Below, one piece after another: positions 12,935 to 15,900 of a stretch of 64,000 nt of DNA; the stretch's first letter is position 1, and the number at the start of each line of letters is the position of its first letter. The notes beneath the pieces were generated by a model, which was not told the origin of the DNA, did no database searches, and saw only the letters and a list, made by a program, of their open reading frames with translations. The translations under genes were made by a program, and so were the position numbers. Source of the stretch: Clytia hemisphaerica. Lineage: Eukaryota > Cnidaria > Hydrozoa > Leptothecata > Clytiidae. The stretch covers positions 658,458-722,457 of the forward strand of contig CACVBU010000276.1 in NCBI GenBank assembly GCA_902728285.1, read 5' to 3'.

Positions 12935-15900
12935 ATGAATCATCGAAGATTGCGTCAAATCTTGGATCAAAACATTATTAGCCTGGTGCATCATGATCAA
13001 AATGTATCAGTTAGCCTGGAAGAACTAGTCATCGATATTATGGATGATTCAGCCGCAATGATGAAACAGGTTGTCCCTCATCGATATTGTGCTGATATGG
13101 TGTACGCTTTATTCAATATCATGAACGAAAATACTCCAAGATTTCCAAGGTTTGTAGATACACAATTTTATAAGCAAAACAAATTTTTCAAGCTGGAGTT
13201 TTTACAAGCTCTTATTTGATTTGGTTTGTAAATCTGTAATAAAACAATTCAATTACTTTTTCTAAAGAACGCGTCATCTCTATTACTTTAGATGGTCAAT
13301 CAGTGAAGTGTGTTAAAAAAACTCCAACTCATCCCAAATTTTCGGGTCAGGGCTGGGTCGCTTAGTATTCTATATGCATAAGCATTTGTATGACCAACCT
13401 TGGTATTATACCATATTTATGCTTATTGATTGGGCCAAGCTTTACCAACCTGATTGCTTATAGAGAAGAAAACGCGTAATGGCTTTGAATTCCCATCCCA
13501 ACATGTAGGTCCATAAAGATATGTGTCCAGTTGAACCCTATGTATAAGTAGGATAACTATAGTAGAATATGAGACCTAAAATTTAGCCAGAACCAAGAAC
13601 TAATTTTTTAAGAAAAAATTGAAAATCAGAGTTCAGAAACTTTTTAGAAAGAAAAAATTTTTTAAGTTGTCAAATTTATCAAGCATAAAGATTTGAGAAC
13701 AACCCACCGAGCATCAACCAAAATTTGCTGGTTCTTATTCATGATATACACCATTGCAATGTCTTCCACGGACCCAACAGTTGATTGGTTGAAATTAACG
13801 TATTGACTGATTTTACGTCACTTACAACCAATCAGCTGTTGGGTCTGTGATGTAATGTCAGAAGACATTGCAATGGTGCATATCATGAATATGCCTACAT
13901 CGTTGGATGATTGATTGAGTGTTTTTCACTTGCCAATTTTTTCTTTCTTTTCCAGAGTTGCTGGCAATGCAGCATTCATCCTTGGCTCCCTCCTTGAGGA
14001 CGAGAACGGTCGTCGGAAGGTTCAACAACTTCTTCTTGAAGAGAAACACCAAGACGATACAAGCTACCTCTTACCAAGCCTCACTGCTCTCATCCAAACA
14101 CAAGATCAAGAAGCAATGACCAACGCCTCAGGAACACTCTCGCTACTGGTAAGTGGGGTTCCCAGAAATTTTAATATATTTCAAATTCTTGAAGGTTTTG
14201 TTTTTAAATAAGAGTGATATTGTTTGCTTACTCATCAATTTTAATTATAAGCTTCTTTACATGGAATTGACACGGATGTGGAGCAATTTGCTTGTTTATA
14301 TCAACACAATATAACAATAGGGAGACACTGTCCTGGTATGAAATATGTGTCTGATATGAAACGGAAACACTTATGTAAAAACAAAACCTTTAACCCATTA
14401 ATTAAAAAGTTTCTTTCTTTGGGTCAAAAACAAGAAATAAAACATTAATCGCCTCGTTCATCTTTTTGATTCCAGTTACGGACAATATCAACAGAGTCAA
14501 AAAAATCTTCTTTGGAATAAGTGTACCGCTTCATAATGTTCAGAACATTTTCAAATCTCCAATCTTGCTGATGAAGTGACAATGGAATCACTTCTTTTGC
14601 AAATTATACTCTTTTATTTTAGCTTGAGAGTACATAAGGGCCTGAGTGGGCGTGGTTTATGATATCATTTATTTTACTAACTCCTCTTTTCTTTCAGCTC
14701 GAGAGTGAAGAGGGGCCCGAGTGGGCGTTTATGATATCCTTTATTTTACGAATTGCTCTTTTCTTTTAGCTTGAGAGTGCAGAAGGGCGTGGGTGGGCGT
14801 TCATAATATCACTTCTTTTACAAATTTCTCTTTTCTTTCAGCTTGAGAGTGCAGAAGGGCGTGAGTGGGTGTTTATGATATCCTTTATTTTGCGAATTGC
14901 TCTTTTCTTTTAGCTTGAGAGTGCAAAAGGGCGTGAGTGAGTGTTCATAATATAACTTCTTTTACAAAATTGCTCTTTTCTTTCAGCTTGAGAGTGCAGA
15001 AGGCGTAGGTGGGCGTTCATAATATAACTTATTTTTACAAATTGCTCTTTTCTTTTAGCTCGAGAGTGCAGAAGGGCGGGAGTGGGCGTTGAATCAACCG
15101 TCAATGGAATGGATGGTCTTCATTCTCTCTGAATGCTTATTACAAGACTATCGTGATTTATGTGTAGCCAGTAATTGTGCGTTAAGTTTAGCAAGGTAAA
15201 TTTTCACATTCTGCACCCGAATTCTTAATATTAATGACGTAATCTTTTATACGGAAACACCCGAAAAACATCGGGCGTTTGCAACCAGTTTTGAATTTAA
15301 ACAATCAAAATGGTGGCAAACGCTTGCTGTTTTTCGTGTACTTCCCTATAAAAGATTACGTCGTGAAAATCCAAAATTCTTATTTTCTTTGGTACAGTTG
15401 TTGACTCTCTCTCTAATTCGATCTTCGAGGAACCAGGGATTTTCTTTGAATTAAAGATTCAAATTACATAAAGTATTTTAAACTACTTTTCAGCTGAGAA
15501 TATTCTAGTTCAAATTATAGAAAGATTAGAATAGTAGAGGTTCGAATTAGAGAGAGTTCACTTTACTTTAATATGCAGTTGATGTTCTCTAATTCGATGT
15601 TCTACTATTCGATACGGTCCCTTATTCGATAATATTGAAAATCACCGTCAACAAGAAACTCTCGTAAACGACGCTCTTCTATTCGAAATCCCATTCCCCT
15701 TAAAAATCGAACAAGAGAGCGTTAACTTCAATGGTTATCTGGGTTAATTATAGTGAATTTCAAATTTTTGGGGTTTACTGGCTCGAGATTTTCATCAAAA
15801 TACAGTTTATTTTGGCCAATAAACAATATCTAGTTACTTAGCGATCATTTTCTATTATGTTAACTTTTACCTTGGTTGGAAAAACTAATTTCCCTTAAAA

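Follow-up and report, generated by a model that had tools for sequence, protein, structure and literature searches.

Directly before exon 3 of a predicted gene of Clytia hemisphaerica lie seven tandem acceptor-bearing units of 72-75 bp each (array 1). The array was found in a stretch of 64,000 nucleotides, which was analyzed as a whole and is referred to below as the window. We consider it likely, with a probability of roughly 80%, that array 1 is a tolerated minisatellite of an exon-intron boundary, a so-called mirage, that is bypassed by splicing and has no dedicated role. This reading is supported by the anatomy of the array, the coding consequence of each copy, and duplications at other boundaries of the host gene; against harmlessness counts the VNTR of human ABCA7, which, in the excerpted report, shows that such repeats can alter splicing (PMC5954066). 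Three clear boundary duplications within one predicted gene, against none at the 32 placed introns of three neighboring genes, provide a natural setting for asking how the spliceosome selects among seven almost identical acceptors, and whether the boundary repeats that a genome retains are determined by nonsense-mediated decay.

The host gene was modeled from 16 GT-AG bounded segments picked by eye, which when joined gave an uninterrupted open reading frame. Its predicted protein matches Pfam fn3 in three stretches (8.5e-25) and Pfam Arm at 4.1e-4, with 20.8 bits barely above the cut-off of 20.6. The assignment of exon 3 and of the acceptor at 15059 to this predicted gene is well supported by the coding sequence. 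The features needed to follow the array are:

12935..28522, + strand: predicted host gene, 16 exons, 734 codons, Arm repeat and FN3 (joined GT-AG exons, Pfam)
13956..14148, + strand: exon 2, donor at 14149, phase 0
15059..15195, + strand: exon 3 proper, acceptor at 15059

Each unit of array 1 consists of ~40 nt of intron end, including the pyrimidine tract and AG, followed by 32 nt that correspond to the first bases of exon 3, and the AG is present in 7/7 units. The first exonic bases, given for each unit below, are spaced by 75, 72, 72, 72, 73, and 72 nt. Only U7 reaches the exon 3 body (15059-15195), while U1-U6 have no continuation into exon 3.

14583..14654, + strand: U1, decoy acceptor, first exonic base 14623; stop after 4 codons
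14658..14729, + strand: U2, decoy acceptor 14698; stop after 23 codons, at the TAG of the next unit
14730..14801, + strand: U3, decoy acceptor 14770; stop after 47 codons
14802..14873, + strand: U4, decoy acceptor 14842, the top matrix score among the seven; stop after 23 codons
14874..14945, + strand: U5, decoy acceptor 14914; TGA after 8 codons
14947..15018, + strand: U6, decoy acceptor 14987; 1 nt shorter, with a frameshift, and TAA after 11 codons
15019..15090, + strand: U7, genuine acceptor, exon start 15059

TRF recovered the array at 14609-15090 with period 72 (score 611) and period 144 (score 674), and from 14590 with period 216 (score 680); 68 was the most that any of 20 first-order Markov copies of the window reached. 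When up to 3 mismatches were allowed, the 24-bp core CTCTTTTCTTTYAGCTYGAGAGTG was matched 7 times in the window and not once in 100 dinucleotide-preserving shuffles. A preliminary description of this DNA had reported seven tandem acceptor copies with a 72-75 base unit before exon 3, of which 32 bases were exon start and only the last ran into the true exon; unit alignment and TRF bear out the array, the 32 bases and the passage from U7 into exon 3 were found again, and the exon 2 donor that it placed at 14149 agrees with the gene model.

Tandem arrays are easily mis-assembled, and this apparently happened to one published lancelet mirage in the draft genome, according to the available part of its description. 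That array 1 is an assembly artefact is nevertheless very improbable: its units differ at many positions, whereas copies created by an assembly error should be identical, though the exact copy number is still uncertain. The differences between units alternate, with intronic-part identities of 0.97 for U3-U5 and 0.90 for U4-U6, and the period-144 TRF score exceeds that of period 72. Alternating units and a 144-bp period together indicate that expansion probably proceeded partly by two-unit blocks; in this single sequence, the 144-bp register suggests past expansion of the array. As a tolerated mirage, array 1 would have been born by tandem duplication of the intron-exon boundary, taking ~40 nt of intron end and 32 nt of exon start, and would have grown by slippage or unequal exchange, partly in two-unit blocks.

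When translation is continued from exon 2 in phase 0, a premature stop follows each of the six upstream acceptors (6/6). The TAG after the 14842 unit, the TGA in the 14914 unit, and the frameshift and TAA in the 14987 unit had been given correctly before; the stops reached from U1, U2, and U3 are additional to these. In addition, the U7 acceptor's own TAG is an in-frame stop for any frame-0 reading that arrives from upstream. The preliminary description had taken the units for near-identical decoys with a single productive copy at the downstream end; that interpretation holds as far as sequence can support it, but it overlooked the two-unit (144 bp) register as well as the further boundary duplications and the match to mirages described below. 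The extra copies sit within intron 2 and would be spliced out with it, the genuine acceptor presumably being the copy that adjoins the exon 3 body and its donor. Since splicing to an upstream copy would lengthen the message by a segment containing a premature stop, the resulting mRNA would be expected to be degraded by nonsense-mediated decay. The array would persist by tolerance, being nearly neutral.

In NAGNAG and other closely spaced tandem acceptors, only a few nucleotides separate the sites, and using either one commonly preserves the reading frame. Array 1 resembles them in placing several AGs, putatively usable, close to one exon, but its acceptors are 72-75 nt apart and every decoy leads to a stop.

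Acceptor and donor strength was scored with a matrix trained on 32 introns of MCM3, PSMD14, and JNK, which lie elsewhere in the window. The true acceptor scores 10.54 and the six decoys 10.54-13.44, none lower than the true site, so local acceptor strength fails to explain the presumed sole use of the last copy; we infer that U7 would be chosen for its nearness to the exon 3 body and to the donor of that exon. Of the real acceptors, 26/32 score 10.54 or less (leave-one-out). Only 16 of 855 AGs between 12935 and 28522 reach 10.5, and array 1 supplies seven of the 16.

Decoys at least as strong as the true site, each with a premature stop, would also be expected of a regulatory array, in which upstream acceptors compete with U7 and divert a fraction of transcripts to nonsense-mediated decay, copy number setting the output. 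In the same direction, VNTR length affects splicing in human ABCA7, as the excerpted report describes (PMC5954066). The 14-nt core of pyrimidine tract and AG is, moreover, the least variable part of the unit: the mean pairwise difference is 0.043 in the core and 0.185 in the upstream intron part (U2-U7), and 2/14 core columns vary among the seven units, compared to 23/57 elsewhere, a difference that is not significant (Fisher p = 0.12, or 0.09 without U1). Selective maintenance of the decoy acceptors is thereby suggested, at a level short of significance, but the T-rich core of a young array can vary little without selection. We regard the regulatory explanation as unlikely, and two further observations given below, on intron 6 and on lancelet genes, speak against it.

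Intron gain or exonisation under way, with a unit turning into a small exon or a new intron, is a published model for lancelet globin mirages in the portions available, and by eye the exon-derived part of several units contains a GT in a GTGAGT- or GTAGGT-like setting. However, only four GTs in the exon-derived parts score above 0, and their scores of 0.13-1.78 exceed just 1/32 real donors, which makes this outcome highly improbable for array 1; micro-exons inside the units were dropped as a candidate on the same scores.

Beyond intron 2, copies of splice-site regions were found at three other introns of the host gene:

17198..17592, + strand: array 2, intron 6 donor, five copies (70 or 85 bp) that start exactly at the donor
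25025..25094, + strand: end of exon 10 (63 nt) and first 7 nt of intron 10, genuine donor 25088
25148..25217, + strand: second copy of the exon 10 end and donor, 67/70 identical, 123 bp downstream
15819..15872, + strand: partial copy of sequence immediately preceding the intron 3 acceptor, 48/54 identical to 16013-16066, without AG

The GTs of array 2 lie at 17198 (genuine), 17268, 17353, 17438, and 17508, and no exon-derived sequence was seen in its units. GT is kept in 5/5 copies, two of them as a weak GTTAGT scoring 1.63. The genuine donor scores 5.76 and the other four 4.77, 1.63, 1.63, and 4.77, so that the decoys here are weaker, unlike those of array 1; decoy donors (1.63-4.77) below the genuine site argue against regulatory decoys. 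Both copies at the intron 10 donor keep GT (2/2), and the intron 3 partial copy ends 7 nt before the end of the intron.

Mirages, repeats that have seldom been reported, were described in a 2002 paper, as later work states. In the available portions of the literature, the term denotes minisatellites of exon-intron boundaries in lancelet genes (Adh3, the globins BflGb6 and BflGb9, TnC, and PGBD5), all cases so named come from lancelets, the repeats span or abut 3' or 5' splice sites, and many copies keep AG or GT. Published units measure 10-72 bp in Adh3, 60 and 108 bp in PGBD5, and 150-160 bp in the globins. Array 1 and its sister duplications look like a further case of this already described kind and not a new system. 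First, units with both intron and exon parts occur in array 1 (~40 + 32 nt) and, with 63 nt of exon and 7 nt of intron, at intron 10, whereas array 2 lacks an exonic part, differing in this from boundary-spanning mirages, and fits only loosely in that it abuts the splice site, as described for PGBD5 in the same portions. Second, AG or GT persists in the copies of array 1, array 2, and intron 10 but not in the intron 3 partial copy. Third, the unit lengths of 72-75, 70-85, and 123 bp fall within the published range. Tandem boundary repeats at an acceptor or donor, of similar unit size and with AG or GT kept, are therefore shared with the lancelet genes as far as these are described. The host gene differs in having three clear boundaries hit, an acceptor and donors, whereas the globin genes are shown with one each and PGBD5 with two in the accounts available. 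A literature search brought no other mirage paper that we recognised, which does not show absence.

In the available accounts, lancelet Adh3 data and globin RT-PCR suggest that regular splicing is undisturbed, though the copies could be cryptic sites; such normal splicing counts against regulatory decoys and is in keeping with a tolerated mirage. The intron 18 VNTR of human ABCA7 has a 25 bp unit whose first two bases are the splice donor, and a cryptic donor there retains one unit, giving a frameshift and premature stop, with nonsense-mediated decay as one outcome that the authors name in the excerpted report (PMC5954066). The units of array 2 likewise begin with a donor. In contrast to array 1, and again as far as the excerpts describe it, the ABCA7 repeat is a donor array, not an acceptor array, with a 25-bp unit in 12 or more units, polymorphic and disease-associated.

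To measure how often splice sites in the window are duplicated, 70 nt around each of 94 splice sites (47 introns, 32 + 15) were scanned for a copy within 800 nt. The 32 comparison introns (15 in MCM3, 8 in PSMD14, 9 in JNK) come from genes located with presumed human probe sequences, the introns then being refined, and only part of these genes' exons was placed. All clear copies are in the host gene, at the intron 2 acceptor (score 48), the intron 10 donor (39.5), and the intron 6 donor (30); the partial copy at the intron 3 acceptor scores 20.5, and the next best of the 94 sites score at most 14. The 32 introns placed in MCM3, PSMD14, and JNK yielded nothing comparable over the same distance. 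As a control, 600 positions were drawn at random from the window, excluding its three large arrays: 2, 3, and 3 of them attain the scores of the three clear cases, 7 attain that of the partial copy, and one scores at least 55; local copies therefore also occur away from splice sites. By arithmetic, ~0.5 of 94 sites would be expected to score 30 or more. Counted per gene, 3/15 introns are affected in the host and 0/32 elsewhere (Fisher p = 0.028), or 4/15 against 0/32 with the partial case of intron 3 (Fisher p = 0.0077). This clustering is only suggestive, because the grouping was seen before testing and the host introns are longer (median 473 nt, versus 320.5 nt in the comparison introns).

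An in-frame stop coincides with the genuine splice site at 3/3 clear boundaries, a pattern noticed post hoc: TAG at the intron 2 acceptor (phase 0), GTG TAA at the intron 6 donor (phase 2), and AGT TAG at the intron 10 donor (phase 1). Such a stop lies within 9 nt at 13/47 donors and 14/47 acceptors, and three of three has a chance of ~0.02 by arithmetic, again post hoc. Boundary minisatellites might survive only where a stop-bearing splice site lets nonsense-mediated decay clear in-frame decoy products, and the copy number of strong decoys would then be a freely mutating dial on gene output, a proposal we consider quite doubtful. A stop is met within 131 nt in every one of the host gene's 15 introns; since unguarded boundaries also meet one, a long enough extension likely stops anyway, which speaks against a special role for these stops.

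MCM3, PSMD14, and JNK lie in the window together with the host gene, GC content is 31-39%, and Rfam at gathering scores gave 0 matches within the window. MCM3 and JNK are animal-like. JNK scores 597.9 bits to 5awm, which we take to be a fly entry, and 594.7 to the best MAPK8 entry, presumably human, and so is presumably no closer to human than to fly; it is 73% identical to its presumed human probe. MCM3 scores 884 bits to 8q6o, 870 to the best human entry, and 821 to 6raw, so that it is presumably nearer to vertebrate than to fly entries. For PSMD14 (42800-43797), three exon matches are 100% protein-identical to the presumed human probe.

The third large array, at 38149-38620, holds six to seven copies of ~70 bp (TRF period 71, 6.8 copies); the PSMD14 start, matched only weakly (E 0.49), follows ~3 kb further downstream. 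Its units look acceptor-like by eye, with TTTTAGCT in six of them, and an apparent inverted copy precedes at about 38080-38145; the six TTTTAGCT AGs score only 4.3-7.4, and the array, with no exon known to adjoin it, was not counted as a boundary array. Repeats rich in TTCACGCA occur at 30018-30102 (TRF) and 33700-33960 (by eye, from translations). Fold-back elements are abundant at 12900-28600, where nine inverted-repeat pairs have arms of 26-84 nt, for example at 26797-26977, 15219-15379, and 24666-24856. By eye, similar fold-back sequence (AAAAAGCGATGCATTGTGG...) recurs in introns 7 and 14, at 18340-18490 and 26797-26977, and these elements probably form one dispersed family.
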